A stretch of DNA of 64,000 nucleotides from an uncultured bacterium (lineage in GTDB: Bacteria; Bacteroidota; Rhodothermia; Rhodothermales; UBA10348). The stretch spans positions 819,213-883,212 of the forward strand of contig CALSQR010000002.1 in NCBI GenBank assembly GCA_943788505.1, in the 5' to 3' direction. Positions 2,781-63,153 of the stretch are shown in pieces. The notes beneath the pieces are model-generated. The model was not told the origin of the DNA and searched no databases. It saw only the letters and a list, made by a program, of their open reading frames with translations. How positions within the stretch are numbered: position 1 is the stretch's first letter; each line of letters starts with the position of its first letter. The translations under genes were made by a program, and so were the position numbers.

Positions 2781-4471
2781 TGAGTGAGAATCTTGACTCA
2801 AATCGATTTACTAAGGGTCAGCCTCAACTGAGTGATCAGCGACATTTAACGGCTGGACTTCTTTCACTGAGTGATGCACTCCATTCTTCTCCGCCGCTAC
2901 CCGTCTTAACGGCTAGCGCAATGCGTGAAGCTGATCGGGAGAGTATTGAAGACTTGAAGATTCCTGGATTCATTCTAATGGAATGCGCAGGAAAGGCGGC
3001 TGCTCGTCGAGCTATGGGGATGCTTCCGACGGATCGGACCGGACGTGTTTTCATTTGCTGCGGAAAGGGCAACAATGGAGGAGATGGCATCGTGCTAGCA
3101 CGGTTCTTGGCCCTGTTTGGTCACCGAGTTGATGTCTGGCTTTCACATCATCCTTCATCATTTGGAGAAGATGCGCTTGCCCACTGGCACCTATTTGAGA
3201 GATTACTGCCAGAAAATGCAGGCGCAGATGCCAATATCCGAGTTGTTGATTCCGCGCGACCGGACGGTGATGTCGACCTCATCGTGGATGCCCTCTTTGG
3301 TACTGGTCTTCGCTCGTCGGTTCGATCCCCTATTGATGAAGTGATTCGGGGGCTAAATGCCCACCCGGCACCGATACTCGCCCTTGACATGCCATCTGGA
3401 CTTCAGGCTGATACAGGCGAAGGAATGCAGCCGTGTATTGTGGCGGCAGCAACGGTAACTATGGGAGCATTGAAGGCAGGGATGCTTTTGGGGGACGGCC
3501 CAGATGTATGTGGGTCAGTTCACGTGGCAGACATTGGTATTCCAGCCGTGGTGCTGGCGCGGGCAGCGCAGCACGCAGGCTGCGCCCGGAGGTCCTCCGA
3601 CCCGTGGGTGGCAGAACGCATCCGTCCTCGCACGCGAGCAGATCACAAGTACACCACCGGCCCGGCGCTAATCGCTGGCGGGTCGGAGGCCTTTCCGGGC
3701 GCCCCGGCCCTGGCGGCCCGGGGCGCGGCCCGCGCCGGCAGTGGCTATGTGATAGCCCTATGCCCATCGGAAATACGCACGATTCTTCAGGAAAAACTCG
3801 ATGCTATACCTGTTTCGTCGTGGTCACACCTTGATAATGCTTCCGCAGATGAGCTGATCGATCTGTTGGGAGATCGCTGGTCGAAAGCGAAAGCGCTCCT
3901 CGTTGGGCCGGGACTTGGACAGCAGGAGGACATGGGGTCATTTGTCTGGCATCTACTTGAACGCTTTGATGGTCCCGCAGTGATTGACGCCGATGGGATA
4001 TCCTCCTTAGCCCTACTACCCAGAATTGCGCAGGAGTTTGCTGAGCGATCAAAGGGTCGCTGGATACTTACTCCTCACGACGGAGAATTTAGACGCCTTT
4101 TACACGCATCTGCCGAGGCCGAGTCCTTGACCGAAGGCAACAGAATTGAGACAGCTCGGGCATTTGCCGCTAGGTGGAATTGTGTTCTGTTACTCAAGGG
4201 CCTGCCTTCCTGCTGCGCATCCCCAGACGGGGATGTCTTAGTCAATGCCACTGGTAATTCGGCCGTCGGCACAGCCGGGACTGGCGATGTACTTGCTGGA
4301 ATTGTAACTGGATTGCTTGCTCAAGGCCTCTCACCATTTGATGCCGCTGCTTGTGGTATCCACCTGGGCGGAACAGCCGCTGACGACTTCGTAGAAGAGG
4401 GCGCCCCTCAATCAATGGTAGCTCCAGACATTTTGGACTTACTTCCTACCGTTCTGAATCGATTTATTTGA
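2780..4471 (+). CDS. nnr: Bifunctional NAD(P)H-hydrate epimerase / ADP-dependent NAD(P)H-hydrate dehydratase
   Basis: Repairs hydrated NADH/NADPH: the N-terminal YjeF_N domain epimerises R- and S-NAD(P)HX, and the C-terminal ribokinase-like domain dehydrates the S form using ADP. The epimerase domain spans about residues 45-260, with the nucleotide loop GKGNNGGDG at about 95-103. The dehydratase spans about 290-555, with PGLG, ILTPHDGEF and the NATGNSAVGTAGTGDVLAG signature near 490-508. The ATG at 2780 overlaps the upstream stop; a TTG one codon earlier is possible. The 563 residues include about 40 extra N-terminal residues. Codons for about residues 255-322 (3541-3745) are far richer in G+C (roughly 75-80%) than the rest of the gene. 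Confidence 0.93.
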   Translation: MSENLDSNRFTKGQPQLSDQRHLTAGLLSLSDALHSSPPLPVLTASAMREADRESIEDLKIPGFILMECAGKAAARRAMGMLPTDRTGRVFICCGKGNNGGDGIVLARFLALFGHRVDVWLSHHPSSFGEDALAHWHLFERLLPENAGADANIRVVDSARPDGDVDLIVDALFGTGLRSSVRSPIDEVIRGLNAHPAPILALDMPSGLQADTGEGMQPCIVAAATVTMGALKAGMLLGDGPDVCGSVHVADIGIPAVVLARAAQHAGCARRSSDPWVAERIRPRTRADHKYTTGPALIAGGSEAFPGAPALAARGAARAGSGYVIALCPSEIRTILQEKLDAIPVSSWSHLDNASADELIDLLGDRWSKAKALLVGPGLGQQEDMGSFVWHLLERFDGPAVIDADGISSLALLPRIAQEFAERSKGRWILTPHDGEFRRLLHASAEAESLTEGNRIETARAFAARWNCVLLLKGLPSCCASPDGDVLVNATGNSAVGTAGTGDVLAGIVTGLLAQGLSPFDAAACGIHLGGTAADDFVEEGAPQSMVAPDILDLLPTVLNRFI

Positions 4472-4476
4472 ACCGG

Positions 4477-4866
4477 ATGCTTCGTTTGCTACCGCCATTT
4501 CGCCTCGCCGTAGGATGGACCCTGCTCATCATGGTAGCACTCACGATTCCCGGAAAGTCGATTCCTGATTCCCACATCTTTCAACTAGATAAACTGATCC
4601 ACGCCGGATTATTTCTAGTATTGACCTTGCTGTGGCTGGCAGCTCTCTCTGAAGGACATATTGGCAGGGGCTTGACTATTTTGGCCGCCATGATTGTTTT
4701 TGCAATTTTTACGGAGTTTTACCAACAGATAATGCCAATCGGACGGTCTGCCGACCTGCTTGACTCAGTTGCTGACGCAATAGGTTCGATCGTTGCCTTC
4801 CTCATCTGGCTCGACGCCAGAACAAGATTGGAACGATGGCGGCAGCGTTCCGTAGATAATCTCTGA
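4477..4866 (+). CDS. VanZ-like family membrane protein
   Basis: A protein of about 129 residues with four hydrophobic segments and the VanZ-like signature: DKLIHAGLF after the first segment, FTEFYQ in the middle and GRSADLLDSVADAIG before the last helix. VanZ-like proteins are inner-membrane proteins of poorly known function; the namesake gives low-level teicoplanin resistance, but most homologues have no demonstrated role. The ATG at 4477 is six bases beyond the nnr stop. A TTG at 4468 overlapping that stop is the alternative and would add three residues. It appears to be the last gene of the run that begins near base 397. The 180 bases after it hold no recognisable gene. Confidence 0.82.
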   Translation: MLRLLPPFRLAVGWTLLIMVALTIPGKSIPDSHIFQLDKLIHAGLFLVLTLLWLAALSEGHIGRGLTILAAMIVFAIFTEFYQQIMPIGRSADLLDSVADAIGSIVAFLIWLDARTRLERWRQRSVDNL

Positions 4867-7412: not shown

Positions 7413-7526
7413 AACGCAACCAGTATGGTGATGTGTAACAGAATAATCTACCACGTGGCCTTCTACAACTCGTTACCCGAATCACTTCCATTGCGTACTT
7501 TAAGAGCGAATCAACCCTAGAGATGA

Positions 7527-8765
7527 ATGGCCTACGATATTACCCGCATCCGTGAAGAGTTTCCCTCACTGACTGTCACTGATGAGGGACAGCGCCGCAT
7601 CTATTTCGACAATCCGGGTGGGACGCAGATCTGCCAGCGATCAATCGATCGCATGAATCACTATTTGATCCATGCGAACACAAACACGCACGGTCCTTTC
7701 CGGACGTCGCATATGACCGATGAAATCATTGATCAGACACACGCAGCGCTGGCTGACTTCGTAGGATCAGATGATCCAGGTGAAATCATTTTTGGTCAGA
7801 ACATGACCACCATTACGTTCCACCTGGCCCATTCGATCGGTCGTACCCTGCGCCCAGGTGACGAAATCGTCGTCACACGCATGGACCACGATGCTAACAT
7901 CAGTCCCTGGCTCTTAATGGCGCGTGATGCTGGATGTACGGTTCGGTGGATCGACTTTGACCCAGCTACTTATCGATTCGACCCCTCCTCTGTTGAGTCT
8001 GCCATCACCGATAAAACCCGATTTGTAGCGGTCAATTACGCCTCGAATGCGTTAGGGACGATCAACGATGTAAAGGCAGTAGCTGATGCAGCTCATGCCG
8101 TTGGCGCGCTTGTATTTGTTGACTCTGTGCAATTTTCTCCTCACTTCCTGACGGATGTAAAAGCAATTGGATGCGATTTTCTTGCCTGCTCGGCCTACAA
8201 ATATTACGGTCCTCACCAGGGTATGGTCTGGGGCCGAAGGGCGCTTTTGGAATTGCTCGATCCCTACAAAGTGCGCCCTGCCGACGACACCTTGCCTAGC
8301 CGTTTTGAGACCGGGACCCAATCCCATGAAGGCATGGCTGGAACACTCGGGTGTATCGAACACTTTGAATGGATCGGCGAGACCATGGGTAGTGGGGGAG
8401 CCACACGGCGCGAGCGTTTGGTAGCCGGATTTGACGTCGTTGCGGCCTATGAAAAAGACCTTGCCCGACATCTCATCAATGGATTACAGTCCATTCCCGG
8501 CATGCAGGTAAAAGGGCTCTCTGGCGAAGCGGACCTCGACGATCGCGTACCAACGGTATGTGTAACCAGGGACGGTGTTGATCCGGAAACCATTGCGCGG
8601 AATCTTGCTGGACACAACATCTTTGTCTGGCCGGGCCACTACTACGCCATCGAAATTATCGAACGACTTGGCCTGACTGATGCCGGCGGTATGCTGCGTA
8701 TTGGACTAGGGCAGTACAATACTCGAACCGAGATTGATGAGTTGCTGACGGTTCTCGAGGGCTAA
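7527..8765 (+). CDS. Cysteine desulfurase-like class V aminotransferase (VC1184-type)
   Basis: A 412-residue fold-type I PLP enzyme of the class V group. Visible features are YFDNPGGTQ near the start, the EIVVTRMDHDAN stretch, VDSVQFSPH (cofactor-ring Asp) and SAYKYYGPHQG, whose Lys should bind PLP. The sequence resembles the cysteine desulfurase-like family typified by Vibrio VC1184 rather than SufS/IscS; the usual active-site Cys loop (R-G-H-C-A) is not obvious. A role in sulfur or selenium transfer is therefore only a guess, and other carbon-sulfur or aminotransferase chemistry is possible. No iron-sulfur assembly genes are nearby. Confidence 0.85.
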   Translation: MAYDITRIREEFPSLTVTDEGQRRIYFDNPGGTQICQRSIDRMNHYLIHANTNTHGPFRTSHMTDEIIDQTHAALADFVGSDDPGEIIFGQNMTTITFHLAHSIGRTLRPGDEIVVTRMDHDANISPWLLMARDAGCTVRWIDFDPATYRFDPSSVESAITDKTRFVAVNYASNALGTINDVKAVADAAHAVGALVFVDSVQFSPHFLTDVKAIGCDFLACSAYKYYGPHQGMVWGRRALLELLDPYKVRPADDTLPSRFETGTQSHEGMAGTLGCIEHFEWIGETMGSGGATRRERLVAGFDVVAAYEKDLARHLINGLQSIPGMQVKGLSGEADLDDRVPTVCVTRDGVDPETIARNLAGHNIFVWPGHYYAIEIIERLGLTDAGGMLRIGLGQYNTRTEIDELLTVLEG

Positions 8766-55642: not shown

Positions 55643-56632
55643 ATGGAATCTTTGTTGACCACTTCTGGCCTCTTTCTGATCGCACTGATCTTCTTGAGCC
55701 TTGTCGTATTCATGTATTTCATTCCCCTAGGTCTCTGGATCACCGCGTACTTCTCTGGTGTCCGTGTAAAGTTGGTTCGAGACTTGATGGGTATGCGGCT
55801 ACGAAAGGTGCCACCCGTACTTATCATCAGGCCGTTAATCACGGCCCACAAGGCCGGAATTTTTCTGACTACACCCCAATTAGAAGCACACTATTTGGCG
55901 GGGGGGCAAGTACAAAAAGTAGTCAACGCTCTTATTTCTGCGGACAAGGCGAACATTGACCTTAATTTTGAACGAGCTACGGCAATCGATCTTGCGGGTC
56001 GTGACGTTCTCGAGGCCGTACAGGTATCCGTCAATCCGAAAGTCATTGAAACACCTCCTGTCTCTGCTGTGGCAAAAGATGGAATCCAGGTACGTGCGAT
56101 TGCCCGCGTAACAGTTCGAGCCAACATCGAGAGACTCGTTGGGGGAGCAGGCGAAGAAACCATCATTGCGCGTGTCGGCGAAGGTATCGTATCCACGATC
56201 GGCTCCTCGGAGACTCACAAAGGGGTCCTTGAAAATCCGGACTCTATTTCGAAAGTCGTTTTGTCCAAGGGACTGGATTCAGGAACAGCGTTTGAAATCC
56301 TCTCGATTGATATCGCAGACGTTGACGTGGGCGAAAACATTGGTGCCAAACTTCAGACGGATCAAGCCGATGCTGATCTCAAGATTGCGCAGGCCAAAGC
56401 GGAAGAGCGTCGCGCAGCAGCCGTTGCACACGAGCAGGAAATGAAAGCCGCTGTGCAGGAGCAACGTGCGAAAGTTGTTGCTGCCGAGGCTGAAATCCCA
56501 CTCGCTATGGCAGAAGCGTTCAGAAAAGGACATTTGGGTGTGATGGATTACTACAACCTTCGCAACGTCGAAGCAGATACCCATATGCGTCGTTCTATCG
56601 GCGGTGGAGAGTCAGGAGAGAGCAAAAAGTGA
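55643..56632 (+). CDS. floA: Flotillin-like protein FloA
   Basis: A 329-residue flotillin-like membrane scaffold (UPF0365/YqfA type). It opens with a membrane segment ([20 protein letters not shown]), followed by [20 protein letters not shown] and the SPFH-like domain ([40 protein letters not shown]). A C-terminal coiled coil rich in Ala/Glu ([20 protein letters not shown]) ends in [17 protein letters not shown]. It organises ordered lipid regions. In Bacillus it is paired with an NfeD protein; here the coupled partner is a different protein. Confidence 0.95.
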
Positions 56633-57153
56633 GTCGACTTCAGCCAGTAATTTTTTCGACACTGGGAGTCTTTACCGTCAGCCAAGAGCTCAGCGGCATG
56701 GCCATGTCCGTTTTGCAGAACGCGGACCCCGAATTGGTAGCGGAAGAAAGCCTGTGTTTAGCAAGCGTCGCAACAGCCCGATCCATCGAAGCGTCGGCCG
56801 GTGAAGAGAAAGAGTGGTCAGACAGCCTGCTGGTGACGCCTTTCTTATACCGAGACTTCCTTGTGGGTACGGCCATGCTGGAGGCTGGTGATCCAGACAA
56901 ACAGGAAGCTGGTCCAGACATCGGAGAGCGGCTAGAGCGTAAGATGGCCTTTTACGCGGTGCATCTGCCTGCCTCCACGTTGCCAACAGGCTCTGTCTTA
57001 CGCAACGCACTATTGCTGTGGATGGGGCGAATCAGTCCACCAGGCATGTCCACTGGGCCTGAAGAGCGGCTAGACGCCTGTGGAGCCATAGAACGACTTC
57101 AGACGCACGTCCGGCTGCTGGCGGCTCATGCACGGCACGTGAGCGGGTCGTAG
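56629..57153 (+). CDS. Unknown protein coupled to floA
   Basis: I do not recognise this 174-residue protein. It starts at GTG 56629, overlapping the floA stop by four bases (GTGA), so it is made with the flotillin. There is no signal or obvious membrane helix. The sequence is mostly alpha-helical ([38 protein letters not shown]), with a Pro/Thr-rich middle ([20 protein letters not shown]). Context suggests a soluble partner of FloA. The CorC/HlyC gene converges on it. Confidence 0.72.
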
Positions 57154-57185: not shown

Positions 57186-58475
57186 TTAGGATGGAAGGAA
57201 ATCCGTCTCTGAAGGCATCTTCGAAATACGCACAAGATCGATTCGGCTCGCTGTCGCGCGCAAAACGACAAAGCGGAATCCGTTTAGTTCGAATTCATCT
57301 CGCACTTTTGGAATCGTACCTAGTCGTTCCAATAAGTAGCCGGCCACGGTTTCAAAATCGCCATCCGGTAATTTCAGATCTGTCCGCTCAGACAGTTGAT
57401 CAATTTCAAGACGACCACTGGCAATAACAGCTGAGTCGCTCAGAATTCGAAGCATATTTTCATCTACGTCGAACTCATCCTGGATATCCCCAAAAATCTC
57501 TTCTAATAGATCTTCTGATGTGACGAGTCCAGCCGTCCCGCCATACTCGTCAATGACGATAGCGATGGACGTGTTACTGGCGAGGAATTCCTGTAGTAGC
57601 TCTTTGGACAGCTTGGTCTCCGGTACAAAATTCGCTGGCCGGATCATGGCCTCCAAGGAGGCCGGATCGTGGAATAGATCATACGCGAAAGCAATTCCGA
57701 CGATGTGGTCGATGTTGTCCCGATAGATAGGAATTTTCGAGTGCCCGGTGGACACAAATTCCTGTTGCAGGATATCGAGAGGCGTGTTCTCAGGTAACGC
57801 GAAGATATCCGTACGCGGCACCATAGACTCCTTCAGTCGAATCGTACCCATGGCGAATACATTCGACACAAGTGTACTCTCCTCCTCATCAAGGTCTAGC
57901 TCTCCGGTCCTTTTGCTCTCTTCTATAAGTAACTCAAAGTCCCTCCTGATGAAGTCAGAAAAGGAGTCAGAATCAATTTTCACTGCCTTCATGAGTGCCG
58001 TCGCCGTCCAACGCGACACTAAAATCATAGGAAGCAGTAAGTAGTACGTCACTTTCAATGGAATGGCCAGCCAAAACACAGCCCGGTTGGCAATCTCCCG
58101 AAGAATGGATTTTGGGATGATCTCCCCGATAATGAGTACCACAACCGATGCGATGATGGTCTGCACACTGAGTGCAAGCACACCGACGATACCCCCTTCT
58201 AGGCCAACGATCTGGCTGAAAAAGTCCTTTAGAGGTGCCTCGAGATAAAGGGCGACAAGGGTTGAGTAAATGACCAGAGCTAGGTTATTGCCAACCAGCG
58301 TGGTCGTCAAAAGGGTAGCAGGCTGCTCAAGGAAGTTGGATACGACCCTGCCGACCATACCGCCTCGACGGGCGAATACTTCTACCCGCAATCGGTTCGC
58401 GGCGACGAATGCGATCTCCGATCCTGAGAAAAATGCGCTCAAGATGAGTGCTATGATGATGAACGTGAGTTCCAT
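57186..58475 (-). CDS. CNNM / CorC-HlyC family transporter
   Basis: A 429-residue membrane protein. The N-terminal CNNM (DUF21) domain has four hydrophobic segments with SAFFSGSEIAFVAANRLRVE and the conserved GEIIPKS. A pair of CBS domains (about 205-335; VPRTDIFALPENTPLDILQQ and SIAIVIDEYGGTAGLVTSED) and a C-terminal CorC_HlyC domain (LKLPDGDFETVAGYLLERLG) follow. The family is linked to Mg2+ or Co2+ efflux/resistance; the exact ion is unknown. Other members are named hemolysins without proof. Confidence 0.92.
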   Translation of the reverse strand: MELTFIIIALILSAFFSGSEIAFVAANRLRVEVFARRGGMVGRVVSNFLEQPATLLTTTLVGNNLALVIYSTLVALYLEAPLKDFFSQIVGLEGGIVGVLALSVQTIIASVVVLIIGEIIPKSILREIANRAVFWLAIPLKVTYYLLLPMILVSRWTATALMKAVKIDSDSFSDFIRRDFELLIEESKRTGELDLDEEESTLVSNVFAMGTIRLKESMVPRTDIFALPENTPLDILQQEFVSTGHSKIPIYRDNIDHIVGIAFAYDLFHDPASLEAMIRPANFVPETKLSKELLQEFLASNTSIAIVIDEYGGTAGLVTSEDLLEEIFGDIQDEFDVDENMLRILSDSAVIASGRLEIDQLSERTDLKLPDGDFETVAGYLLERLGTIPKVRDEFELNGFRFVVLRATASRIDLVRISKMPSETDFLPS

Positions 58476-58532: not shown

Positions 58533-59315
58533 TCATCGTCCCTTGAACTCTGCTTTTCTCTTGCCAAGAAATGCCTCAACACCTTCCTTAAAATCCTCTG
58601 TCTCGCAGGCGTTACCAAACAGGTCTGCTTCAATGCGCAGTCCATCTTCCAACGGTTGATCAGCATGCCTGAGCGCTTCGAGCGAAAGGGAAACCGCTAT
58701 CGGGGCTTTGGACAGGATCTTCCCCATAAGTTTGCGTGCACCGGCCATGAGTTCATCAGATGCAAACACGTGATTTACCAAGCCCATTTCGTACGCCCTA
58801 GCGGCGGGAATCATGGCTCCGGTCAATATTAGTTCAGTAGCCAAACCGAGGCCAACTAGTCTAGGAAGCCGCTGTGTACCACCATATCCAGGTAGAATAC
58901 CCAGATTGACTTCAGGTTGGCCAAAAACGGCCGTATCTGAGGCTACCCTCAAATGGCAAGCTAACGCGAGTTCGCTTCCACCGCCAAGAGCAAAACCATT
59001 GACGACAGCAATCACCGGCTTTCCAAGCTGCTCGATGCGATTGAAAACCGCTTGGCCTCGAGTTGCAAACGTGCGCCCTAGAGAGCCATCGAGATCGCGG
59101 AACCGTGCGATGTCAGCTCCAGCTACAAAACTTTTATCGCCTGCTCCAGTCAGCAATACACCACGAACGGATGAGTCATCTGCTGCGTTTGTAAACCAGT
59201 CATCTAGGTCCGATATCACATCTGCGTTCAATGCGTTCAGCTTATCGGGACGATTGATCGTGACCGTGGCGATGCCGTCATCAGCAACGTCAATTAAAAG
59301 CGTGGAGTACGACAT
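58533..59315 (-). CDS. Enoyl-CoA hydratase/isomerase family protein
   Basis: A 260-residue crotonase-fold protein. The oxyanion region is FVAGADIARF and NGFALGGGSELALACHLRVA. The two catalytic Glu positions are visible: the first in QPEVNLGILPGYGGTQRLPR, the second around LATELILTGAMIPAARAYEM. This suits an enoyl-CoA hydratase of fatty-acid or amino-acid breakdown. No other beta-oxidation genes are next to it. Confidence 0.93.
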   Translation of the reverse strand: MSYSTLLIDVADDGIATVTINRPDKLNALNADVISDLDDWFTNAADDSSVRGVLLTGAGDKSFVAGADIARFRDLDGSLGRTFATRGQAVFNRIEQLGKPVIAVVNGFALGGGSELALACHLRVASDTAVFGQPEVNLGILPGYGGTQRLPRLVGLGLATELILTGAMIPAARAYEMGLVNHVFASDELMAGARKLMGKILSKAPIAVSLSLEALRHADQPLEDGLRIEADLFGNACETEDFKEGVEAFLGKRKAEFKGR

Positions 59316-59426: not shown

Positions 59427-60296
59427 TCAATCGCGGACTTTCTGGTCCTGAATATCTGCTGGCAGTTCAGTCGGATCCTCGAACGTATCCATCTCATTGA
59501 GCAGATCCATTGGATTGGCGAAGACCTCTTCAAGCTCTTCCACAGATGCTTGCGTTTCTTCCACTTCCGTAAGGAGCGTATCCAGCTGGAAGGAAATTTC
59601 CTCTGGATTCCTGAGCGTGAGGGACTGTTCGTGGATGTATTTAACCACATCCTCAATGGTCTCGAGCTGTGCTTCGATAATCTCCAGATTTTCCTGCCCC
59701 TTCTTACTGCGCTCAAGACGCTGCTCAAGGATGCGTAATCTGCGAGCTTTGATGGCTCTGACACGCTCTGAATCATCCACCATGTCCTTACGCAAAGCCT
59801 GGATCGAACGAAGAACTTCTGATTCCACGCCAGCTTGGGCAGAAAACTCATACCGCTCCTTCTGATAGAGAAGCTTCATGTACGACTCGAGGAGACCGTC
59901 AATCTTTTTGAGATGCGAGTCAAGCATACCTTGTGAGGCATAGCTGAGCTTGCGATAGTTGGCTCGGATGTCCTTTTCGAGCTTACGCAGACGTGCGTAC
60001 CGGCGGCGATCAGGCGCGGCCAGCGTCTGGAATAGTTCTTTCTGGGACGGCGGTTTAGCGTGCTCTAACGCGCGGCGAGAGCGAATCGCTCTGCGAAAGC
60101 GCTCCTGCCTTGGCATCATTCCCAGATAGGCCAATTCGACGCCTGATGTGAATATCAACGCCACATCAAAGGGCCACTTTGCTCCCGTCAAACTCACCCC
60201 GAATGCGAGAAGCATCGACATGATGAGAAACGTGAGATTCCACGGATGCCGGAATGCTTCCTTGGTGTAGTTGATATCCAGTTGGTTGCGATTCAA
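59427..60296 (-). CDS. Two-helix membrane protein with long coiled coil, third gene of the PspA cluster
   Basis: I do not recognise this 289-residue protein. Two hydrophobic segments near the start (NLTFLIMSMLLAFGVSLTG and PFDVALIFTSGVELAYLGMM) are followed by a basic stretch and a long coiled coil (RLRILEQRLERSKKGQENLE, LDTLLTEVEETQASVEELEE) to an acidic tail. It lies 58 bases after the short PspA paralogue, in the same direction, so is probably a membrane partner that anchors or regulates the PspA pair. The tail QDQKVRD lacks the KTIGR motif of the other two. Confidence 0.75.
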   Translation of the reverse strand: MNRNQLDINYTKEAFRHPWNLTFLIMSMLLAFGVSLTGAKWPFDVALIFTSGVELAYLGMMPRQERFRRAIRSRRALEHAKPPSQKELFQTLAAPDRRRYARLRKLEKDIRANYRKLSYASQGMLDSHLKKIDGLLESYMKLLYQKERYEFSAQAGVESEVLRSIQALRKDMVDDSERVRAIKARRLRILEQRLERSKKGQENLEIIEAQLETIEDVVKYIHEQSLTLRNPEEISFQLDTLLTEVEETQASVEELEEVFANPMDLLNEMDTFEDPTELPADIQDQKVRD

Positions 60297-60354
60297 AGTT
60301 GTTTACTGCTTATGCCCGAACACCCAGAGTGCCAGGCATGCCGGACGCTAGGCA

Positions 60355-60843
60355 TCACGGCTTCATTCTTCCGATGGTTTTTTCTGGTAGATCGGACGAG
60401 GATGACTCCTTGGGAGTTGCACCTCCAGCCGATTCATTGGATTGAGACGATGATGCCTGTGTCGAGGTCCGTCCAGAATCTGGACCGGCCACATCACCTT
60501 TCATTTGTCGGATGAGCTCTTTGGCGCGAGCCCTTCGCAGTTCCTGATCAGCTTCTAGCGTTGCGGCATCTAACGCTTCAAGGGTCGAATCATTCGTATC
60601 TAGACTGTCGAGCGCGACATCGAGGCGGGCCTCTGAGCCTGCGGCGTCTGCCTGCAACCGGTAGACCATTTCCTCGTGCTCACTAAACAAGTCTTCAATA
60701 CCGGATGCCATATCAGTAACAGCGCGGGTCACTTGAGACTTGCGCTGCATCTGAGCATGAACCTTCTTGATCTCCTTCAATTTCCGGAGATGGTTCTTCT
60801 CGGCTTCCTTGAACCGTTCGTATTCCTCGGGGGTCATTGCCAC
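60355..60843 (-). CDS. Truncated PspA paralogue with shared C-terminal motif
   Basis: A 162-residue protein, homologous to the C-terminal half of the PspA upstream of it. HEEMVYRLQ pairs with HDEMLNRIQ, EARLDVALDSLDT with EARMEMALDSVDT, and AKELIRQMK with ASELVKQFK. Both proteins end near a KTIGR motif (EKTIGRMKP here). The N-terminal amphipathic helix and the long helical hairpin that bind membranes and build PspA polymers are absent. The linker before the tail is Ser/Gly/Pro rich. It starts 33 bases after the pspA stop. A role as modulator or cap of PspA polymers is an inference. Confidence 0.78.
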   Translation of the reverse strand: MAMTPEEYERFKEAEKNHLRKLKEIKKVHAQMQRKSQVTRAVTDMASGIEDLFSEHEEMVYRLQADAAGSEARLDVALDSLDTNDSTLEALDAATLEADQELRRARAKELIRQMKGDVAGPDSGRTSTQASSSQSNESAGGATPKESSSSDLPEKTIGRMKP

Positions 60844-60876
60844 TACTATACCATCAGACGTCTGTTCGGACTGTTA

Positions 60877-61644
60877 TCAGTTCTGTGACCGTTCGCGACC
60901 GATAGTTTTGCCACCGGTTTCTGCTTCCTGGTCAGACACATCGAGCTGAGGTTCTTCTTGCGCACCGCTCGTATCTCCCATGCCCATTTCAAGTTTAAAC
61001 TGTTTGACCAGTTCTGAGGCCCGAATCTGCTGAGCATCTTCTTCGATTTGCATGGTTTCTGTATCGACAGAATCGAGGGCCATTTCCATGCGCGCCTCAT
61101 TCTTAGCGGTTTGCTCCTGGATGCGATTGAGCATCTCATCATGGGTCTGATCGATACCCGTGACTTCAAATGACTCGAGTGTATCCGCAACCTTGGCCTG
61201 CCATTTGGCACGCTCGTGGGCACGAAGTGCGTCTTTGGCTTCAGCAATTTTGCGTTCTTTTTCCCGCATAAAGGCCTTCTTGACCTGCAGGGCCTTGTCA
61301 TAGGCTGCAGAAGCATATTTGAGTTGCTCCTTCGTAGATGCCACGTTTTCACGGACACTTTCAAGACGCATCGCATAGCGCTCGGCGATATCATCGCGCC
61401 CAGCTTGGATGCCAGCCTTGATTTTTGACGTCACGTCTGCGAGCTCTTGCTCGTATTTCTTGACCTCTTTCTGAAGCATCATCACGTTGGCTTTCACCGT
61501 CGCGATATTCTCATTCATTTTCGGGACCTGATCATTCAGTTCACGAATGTTTTGCTCGAGGATCAGCTTTGGATCTTCGAGGGCGGAGATAGCACCACCA
61601 AAAATTGACCGGATGAGTCGGGTGAATCGTGACCAGATCGCCAT
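60877..61644 (-). CDS. pspA: PspA/IM30 family membrane-stress protein
   Basis: A 255-residue ESCRT-III-like protein. It opens with an amphipathic membrane helix and the conserved IFGGAISALEDPKLILEQNI, then the long helical hairpin (TVKANVMMLQKEVKKYEQEL to RESVRENVASTKEQL-like residues at about 45-130) and helices to about 220. The remaining 35 residues are acidic (GAQEEPQLDVSDQEAET), ending GKTIGRERSQN. PspA binds damaged membranes and forms rods and rings. It heads a three-gene minus-strand cluster with its truncated paralogue and a two-TM coiled-coil protein. No pspF, B, C or LiaR-type regulators are adjacent. Confidence 0.92.
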   Translation of the reverse strand: MAIWSRFTRLIRSIFGGAISALEDPKLILEQNIRELNDQVPKMNENIATVKANVMMLQKEVKKYEQELADVTSKIKAGIQAGRDDIAERYAMRLESVRENVASTKEQLKYASAAYDKALQVKKAFMREKERKIAEAKDALRAHERAKWQAKVADTLESFEVTGIDQTHDEMLNRIQEQTAKNEARMEMALDSVDTETMQIEEDAQQIRASELVKQFKLEMGMGDTSGAQEEPQLDVSDQEAETGGKTIGRERSQN

Positions 61645-61803: not shown

Positions 61804-63153
61804 CTACGGATTCATCCAAAGACCATTGGCGTAGCGATCAGTCAATCGAGAGCCCGGTTCAGTTGCCTCAGGCGAGAACGAAAATGCCTCTAAAATCAAG
61901 GAGACTGATGTGTCGAAACGATCCGCGGTAGACGCTTCAAGACGAGCGATTGGGGCGCCGGCCGCCACTCTTTCTCCCTGTCGTTTTAAAAGCCGAACGC
62001 CGGCGAGCGGATCTACCGGATCTTCCTTCTTACGGCGGCCGGCGCCTAATTCCACCATGGCCCGGCCTACTAATCGAGCATCGATCCGAGCAACGTAATC
62101 GGCTGCATCACTAGGTGCATGTATCAACAGTTCTTGCACACCTTCTTTGCGCACGGCCGGATGTCGAAGTGAGGACACACTTCCTCCTTGATGGCTCACC
62201 ATTTGCTCAAAGCGGTCCATAGCCCTACCAGATGTCACGGCATCGATCGCCAGTGCGCGTGCTTCATCTAGATTATCGGTGCGCCCACCCGAAAGCAGCA
62301 TTTCTGCGGCAAGAGCCATGGTGACTTCCACGAGATCCGCCGGACCTTCCCCTTGCAGAACCTCTAAGGACTCTTCGATCTCTGGCCAATTACCAGCATA
62401 GCATCCGAGGGGCTGATCCATGTCTGTCAGAAGGGCAACCGTCGGCTTTCCAAACTTCTCACTAACCCGAACGAGTGTTTCTGCTAGGAATCGCGCATCG
62501 GATTCCCGTTGCATGAAAGCGCCAGATCCATGCTTCACATCTAGAACAAGAGCATCGATTCCCTCTGCTAACTTTTTTGACAGGATTGATGCCGCAATAA
62601 AGGGCACGAATTCAACCGTTCCCGTTACATCTCTAAGAGCGTACATCTTCCTATCAGCGGGCGCAATGTCGTCTGTCTGCCCGATCATGACAAGACCGAT
62701 ATCCGCGAGCTGCTTTCGGTACCCTGCAATGTCCATGTCTACGGAAAAACCAGGAATAGACTCCAGTTTATCAAGCGTTCCGCCTGTGTGCCCAAGTCCG
62801 CGTCCGGAAATCATCGGGACAGGTACACCACATGCTGCCACAATTGGTGCTAAAGGAATAGAGACTTTATCCCCTACTCCCCCGGTGGAGTGCTTATCGA
62901 CCTTGCGCCCCGGGATATCCGACAAATCGAGTACTCTTCCTGAGTTAAGCATTGCATCGGTCAGCGCAACCATTTCTTCGTCGCTCATCCCTTTCAGAAA
63001 AGCGGCCATCAAAAATGCCGAAACTTGGTAATCGGGAATATGGCCAACGGTATATCCATACACCAGTGTGGCAATCTCGAATTCGGTCAAGGCTCCTCCA
63101 TCCCGTTTCCGCAGGATGAGGTCTATGATATTGATACTCGGATCGTACTGCAT
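61804..63153 (-). CDS. deoA: Thymidine/pyrimidine-nucleoside phosphorylase
   Basis: A 449-residue enzyme that cleaves thymidine (or uridine) with phosphate to the base and deoxyribose 1-phosphate. It carries the family signature, phosphate-binding KHSTGGVGDKVSIPLAPIVA and the SGRGLGHTGGTLDKLESIPG motif, later YALRDVTGTVEF. The C-terminal barrel-sandwich domain (RRKKEDPVDPLAGVRLL, GERVAAGAPIARLEA) is intact. Subclass (thymidine-specific or broad) cannot be settled. It is followed by the pspA cluster on the same strand after 160 bases. Confidence 0.94.
   Translation of the reverse strand: MQYDPSINIIDLILRKRDGGALTEFEIATLVYGYTVGHIPDYQVSAFLMAAFLKGMSDEEMVALTDAMLNSGRVLDLSDIPGRKVDKHSTGGVGDKVSIPLAPIVAACGVPVPMISGRGLGHTGGTLDKLESIPGFSVDMDIAGYRKQLADIGLVMIGQTDDIAPADRKMYALRDVTGTVEFVPFIAASILSKKLAEGIDALVLDVKHGSGAFMQRESDARFLAETLVRVSEKFGKPTVALLTDMDQPLGCYAGNWPEIEESLEVLQGEGPADLVEVTMALAAEMLLSGGRTDNLDEARALAIDAVTSGRAMDRFEQMVSHQGGSVSSLRHPAVRKEGVQELLIHAPSDAADYVARIDARLVGRAMVELGAGRRKKEDPVDPLAGVRLLKRQGERVAAGAPIARLEASTADRFDTSVSLILEAFSFSPEATEPGSRLTDRYANGLWMNP

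Follow-up and report, generated by a model that had tools for sequence, protein, structure and literature searches.

PspA and Vipp1 (IM30) are relatives of the ESCRT-III proteins, and the polymerization of PspA on the inner membrane is established for the family. For archaea and eukaryotes, MIM tails and the ATPase Vps4 are likewise established (PMC8281802, PMC11746142). Liu and colleagues considered it unclear whether PspF is Vps4-like for PspA, and likewise whether any ATPase does the equivalent for Vipp1 (Liu et al. 2021, PMC8281802). Whether a Vps4-like ATPase exists for these proteins is the question that is addressed here, starting from a pspA gene cluster in a window of 64,000 nucleotides, the window being the whole stretch of DNA that was analyzed. 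The features of the cluster are listed below.

61644-60877, minus strand: pspA; 255 aa, PspA/IM30 (ESCRT-III superfamily) core and disordered tail ending GGKTIGRERSQN
60843-60355, minus strand: short gene; 162 aa, headless PspA paralog as judged from hhalign, orthologs, and an AF2 model
60296-59427, minus strand: TM protein gene; 289 aa, two predicted membrane helices and a helical cytosolic domain
60895-60909, minus strand: KTIGR motif in the PspA tail, residues 246-250, from sequence and conservation
60367-60381, minus strand: KTIGR motif in the short-protein tail, residues 155-159, from sequence and family conservation
58533-59315, minus strand: enoyl-CoA hydratase/isomerase (ECH), from PF00378 and synteny
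57186-58475, minus strand: CNNM/CorC-type CBS transporter, from PF01595, PF03471, and synteny
61804-63153, minus strand: thymidine phosphorylase-type gene, upstream of pspA, taken to be deoA from synteny and its sequence

Gene Order and Proteins of the pspA Cluster

The pspA, short, and TM protein genes all lie on the minus strand, separated by 33 bp (pspA to short) and 58 bp (short to TM); a sequence-only reading of this DNA had rightly described a shared direction and short gaps. The short gene and the TM gene abut or overlap by a few bases in Balneola-type groups (L200, for example), which makes the arrangement operon-like. The expectation that the three genes form a lasting unit was borne out, with the order pspA-short-TM found from Rhodothermales to Balneola-type groups. 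The longer order deoA-pspA-short-TM-ECH-CNNM is also kept class-wide, from Rhodothermales to Balneola and Gracilimonas (80 named loci, where contig and lineage allow). ECH is probably a conserved neighbor and not part of the machine. The neighbors of pspA are deoA, short, TM, ECH, and CNNM; genes for PspB, PspC, and PspF are not adjacent to it, and the locus differs in this from the classical pspF/pspABC arrangement.

Convergent with the cluster is a gene for the flotillin-like protein FloA (window positions 55643-56632), which remains close by in many loci of Rhodothermales. In other bacteria, a link between flotillins and PspA is known. An ORF of 174 aa at window positions 56629-57153 overlaps the end of floA and has no Pfam match.

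The 255-aa PspA belongs to the PspA/IM30 family by its PF04012 match (E=6.3e-19; 68.9 bits against a curated cut-off of 33.9), and its PDB relatives are Vipp1/PspA. The gene is single-copy per genome in nearly all sampled members of the class.

The 162-aa protein is, on sequence evidence, a PspA paralog without the membrane hairpin. That it is homologous to the C-terminal half of PspA had been proposed from aligned segments (HDEMLNRIQ/HEEMVYRLQ, EARMEMALDSVDT/EARLDVALDSLDT, ELVKQFK/ELIRQMK), and BLASTP between the two window proteins agrees (E=1e-10). Comparison of family profiles with hhalign (36 short and 35 PspA sequences) gives a probability of 99.3% and E=1.7e-20 over a span from about PspA residue 130 to the end, KTIGR included, which shows the short protein to be homologous to PspA. 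PF04012 itself finds no match in the window short protein and is absent among the families listed for the 36 members; over cut-off, neither the short protein nor the TM protein has a Pfam or NCBIfam match. The membrane hairpin (alpha1-alpha2) and the N-terminal amphipathic helix of PspA have no counterpart in the 36 aligned short proteins.

Nearly all short proteins share an N-terminal helix KEAEKxHLRxLK (KEEYKEHYRxIKEAK in Balneola-type groups), an EARLxVAL(D) segment, and KTIG. In several families (117-138 aa), the alpha-5 region is missing and the helix, the EAR segment, and KTIG are retained. The AF2 model is a single helix, residues 5-118, followed by a disordered tail (pLDDT 83.5); in the window protein, the linker is disordered and the tail reads PEKTIGRMKP. 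The gene occurs in 59 of 60 relatives and adjoins pspA in those read. It is not universal, being absent from families f14 and f16 and from G133/G138, G118, and L197/G459. Two genomes first scored as lacking it (G100, G148) contain divergent KTIG-bearing copies.

The TM protein has predicted membrane helices at about residues 18-35 and 40-63 and a short conserved N-terminus, NYTKEAF. It is well conserved between genomes and present in 59 of 60 relatives and in 141 of 146 class genomes. It has no Pfam or PDB relative; a Foldseek search with its AF2 model (pLDDT 81.9) gave no PDB match at E<=0.001. A second structural look returned many BAR/F-BAR and designed helical bundles at Z 9-12, values that are ordinary for helical models, so no BAR fold is claimed. 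Homology to PspA/Snf7 was considered and gained no support, as profile comparison with the PspA of the class gave a probability of only 2%. One Rhodothermales genome (G132) carries tandem TM protein genes, L100:3028-3888 and 3939-4802, the second of which is more divergent.

The KTIG Tail Tag

The tag was scored as K[ST][IVLM]G within the last 45 residues. Tails of PspA carry it in 88% of cases and tails of the short protein in 98%, against 1.2% and 0.6%, respectively, of composition-shuffled tails; its median distance to the C-terminus is 7 residues for either protein. It is the most conserved feature of tails that are otherwise unconserved, which agrees with the earlier remark that the linkers before both ends have diverged. 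Within the 36-member short family, G158 is the sole invariant column, and K155 and T156 are each conserved in at least 90%. The earlier suggestion that a shared KTIGR is under selection near both C-termini thus gains support, and KTIGR is best read from these sequences as a motif under selection in the tails of PspA and the short protein alike.

Among 114 window frames of at least 110 aa, two end in a KTIGR-like motif, namely PspA and the short protein. Among neighbors from the 80 loci, the tag was found in the tails of 0/80 TM, 0/47 ECH, 0/58 CNNM, and 0/68 DeoA proteins; two of 28 FloA tails match the motif, and these matches fall in FloA's own MR-SIG segment. That the tag might be common to PspA proteins of Bacteroidota generally was also considered and rejected: 19 of 20 sequences sampled outside the class have nothing similar, all 19 coming from genomes in which no AAA gene was found. 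The twentieth is that of G373, a genome with the AAA.

Where PspA has lost the tag and the short gene is present (families f4, f9, f10, and f12), the short protein carries two copies of it in 8 of 8 cases, against 8 of 82 otherwise. On the tree, this pattern corresponds to 2-4 origins and is backed by only 2-3 independent pairs; the apparent compensation, striking as its counts are, is supportive and not proof.

The Double-AAA ATPase and Loss of the Tag

A fourth component, which the sequence-only reading had missed, is a double-AAA ATPase of 644 aa, unlinked to the window and encoded in the same genome at C2:77874-79808, at a distance of about 0.8 Mb from pspA. Only its second AAA domain has Walker A and B motifs, the first domain being degenerate; its Pfam matches are AAA-type only, and an MIT domain was not found among them. 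The gene lies outside the pspA operon in Rhodothermales; in Balneola-type groups, it directly follows CNNM within the pspA cluster. A distant member of the phylum from outside the class (G373) carries a TM protein homolog, then the AAA gene and a gene for a coiled-coil protein; PspA follows beyond a contig end. The AAA proteins of G373 and of C2:77874-79808 are 38% identical (E=8e-98), and the G373 PspA ends in KKEIGP. Downstream of that PspA is a gene for a LysM-domain solute-binding protein (L234:449-1570), an arrangement that resembles the PBPB-containing longer PspA/AAA operons in the main text of Ravi and colleagues (Ravi et al. 2024, PMC11237479).

Of 394 genomes sampled across the phylum, 97 have the TM protein, and exactly these 97 have the AAA; five genomes of the class lack both. 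Plasmid homologs of the AAA in Paenibacillus, Aneurinibacillus, and Brevibacillus have no annotated PspA nearby and are therefore of no use as a wider test. The AAA proteins of family f12 (L264-L267) have a low-complexity insertion of 25-70 residues just ahead of the conserved C-terminal segment. An apparent shortening of these proteins was traced to this insertion and is not a loss. The insertion is unique to the family, which combines a PspA without KTIG and a two-copy short protein.

KTIG is kept by at least one of the two PspA-type proteins in all 88 AAA-bearing genomes examined. Where PspA is present and the AAA was undetected, KTIG is gone in four of seven genomes. These four (G118, G133, G138, and G459) represent three lineages and have PspA without the AAA, KTIG, or the short gene. 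G133 and G138 keep PspA and the TM protein, and G160, a member of their family, keeps all components. In G118, both the short and TM genes are absent and a remnant of the AAA of about 52 aa sits beside CNNM; the operon appears to be decaying, with a shortened pspA tail (L254:4864-5022 and 7419-8135, the AAA C-terminal fragment lying beside CNNM). Because of the co-loss in G133, G138, and G118, the genome behind locus L197, G459, was predicted to be AAA-less before it was tested. G459, for which completeness is unstated, yielded only distant AAA matches (E=5e-17), and six controls each yielded a full AAA (E<=2e-140).

The exceptions are three MAGs (G024, G131, and G054; 89-92% complete) that retain KTIG and in which the AAA was not found. 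Their close relatives possess the AAA, and its absence is likely due to missing contigs. With these MAGs counted as exceptions, Fisher's test of AAA against KTIG gives p=1e-5, a value that ignores relatedness and rests on three loss events. On the tree, there are 2 independent pairs, with G118 extra, and a sign test on 2 pairs is unable to reach significance.

Readings of the Tag and Relation to Known Systems

The readings weighed here build on what was observed: which genes are present and in what order, the paralogy, the conserved tag, and the shared occurrence and loss of the components. It is somewhat probable, from sequence patterns and analogy, that the locus is the substrate side of an ESCRT-III/Vps4-like machine, in which KTIG would dock PspA polymers to the double AAA. 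As the tag is gone in those relatives best shown to be AAA-less, it may let the AAA grip and dismantle PspA polymers, a proposal drawn from the analogy with MIM tails and Vps4. By this analogy, we infer physical docking, polymer disassembly, and the roles of the short and TM proteins. PspA polymers would form on the inner membrane, where the two-helix membrane protein, which co-occurs with PspA, probably recruits or organizes PspA. The KTIG(R/K) tag would be displayed at the end of the flexible PspA tail. The headless paralog, presumably unable to form a hairpin, may pair through its helix with PspA or the TM protein and so supply extra copies of the tag. The tag would serve as the docking site for the dedicated double AAA, whose first domain is predicted to be degenerate and whose second is predicted to be active, and the AAA may use ATP to extract, exchange, or remodel PspA subunits, as Vps4 does via MIM tails. 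The fuller picture, a class-wide ESCRT-III/Vps4 analog in which KTIG on two PspA-type proteins recruits a double-AAA disaggregase and a two-TM protein acts as organizer, is a tentative one, plausible and not quite probable.

The sequence-only reading had placed the docking partner elsewhere, with the TM protein as the anchor onto which KTIGR would dock both PspA-type proteins. The operon-like unit of pspA, short, and TM and the good conservation of the TM protein speak for such an anchor. No result of the analysis singles out the TM protein as the partner, however, and G133, G138, and G459 retain it despite the loss of KTIG, the short gene, and the AAA. The co-loss pattern accordingly fits a putative AAA docking tag better than a TM docking tag, since the TM protein survives without the tag. 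An anchor surface may have been lost in such lineages: the TM proteins of L087, L088, and L197, all from AAA-less lineages, have branches among the longest in the tree (1.06-1.38, the median being 0.11), which looks like relaxed constraint. On balance, docking onto the TM protein is quite unlikely. Co-loss could also reflect general operon decay, with another, unseen gene as the real partner.

A role for KTIGR apart from any AAA is unlikely as well, whether as an alpha-6-like regulatory tail, a lipid element, or a chaperone or protease site. The C-terminal extension of Vipp1 regulates self-association and may bind lipids (PMC8281802), the title of a reference in PMC13051332 reports binding of chloroplast Hsc70 to the VIPP1 tail, and KTIG(R/K) is basic; left unexplained are the loss of the motif in AAA-less lineages and its shift to the short protein, as a second copy there. 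The short protein might, in turn, be an end piece of the PspA polymer that docks and cannot be extended, the tag only co-localizing the two. Its match to the PspA C-terminal half, alpha-5 region included in many members, would suit such a cap. Several families of 117-138 aa lack the alpha-5 region that a cap would need, however, AF2 gives one straight helix and no ESCRT-III bundle, and f14 and f16 do without the gene. A cap is on balance improbable. Docking of the tagged PspA polymers to the double AAA is the favored reading.

Compared with known PspA/Vipp1 (IM30) polymers, the present system shares the PF04012 core and the predicted polymer at the inner membrane, and differs in the added conserved tail tag, headless paralog, and dedicated membrane protein. 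Its likeness to ESCRT-III/Vps4 is one of logic, in that polymer subunits carry linear motifs at the C-terminus, behind flexible linkers, and have a putative AAA partner. KTIG is positioned like an ESCRT-III MIM and is lost where the AAA is lost; it is not known to resemble MIM1 or MIM2. The AAA here differs from Vps4 in being double and not single and in that no MIT domain was found.

Accession CBH24266.1 belongs to Salinibacter ruber M8, a member of Rhodothermales, and its neighborhood is on that account very probably the present cluster. In the main text of Ravi et al. 2024 (PMC11237479), one sentence mentions this neighborhood in Bacteroidetes as PspA with Snf7 and coiled-coil genes. The likeness is a PspA with two further coiled-coil genes; the difference is the naming of Snf7, as no PspA homology was found in the TM protein here. 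The same text pairs PspA with a double-AAA protein whose N-terminal copy is inactive and proposes ATP-dependent remodeling from gene neighborhood alone. The AAA described here agrees with that pairing, having one Walker A/B set and clustering with pspA in Balneola-type groups and G373. The earlier statement that no such system had been described was hence too strong. That main text gives no AAA link for the CBH24266.1 neighborhood. Nor does it describe the tail motif, the lack of a head in the product of the second gene, the phyletic profile across the class, or the co-loss, which are new relative to it; a candidate docking motif and co-loss are thereby added to the pairing, even where the AAA lies outside the operon.

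The locus offers candidates for both the ATPase and its recognition motif, together with lineages that are natural loss mutants, and the question of a Vps4 equivalent for PspA becomes testable. The lineage includes cultured members, namely Salinivenus, Salinibacter, Longimonas, Gracilimonas, and Balneola. If the proposal is true, a PspA polymer would for the first time in bacteria have both its ATPase and the recognition signal identified.
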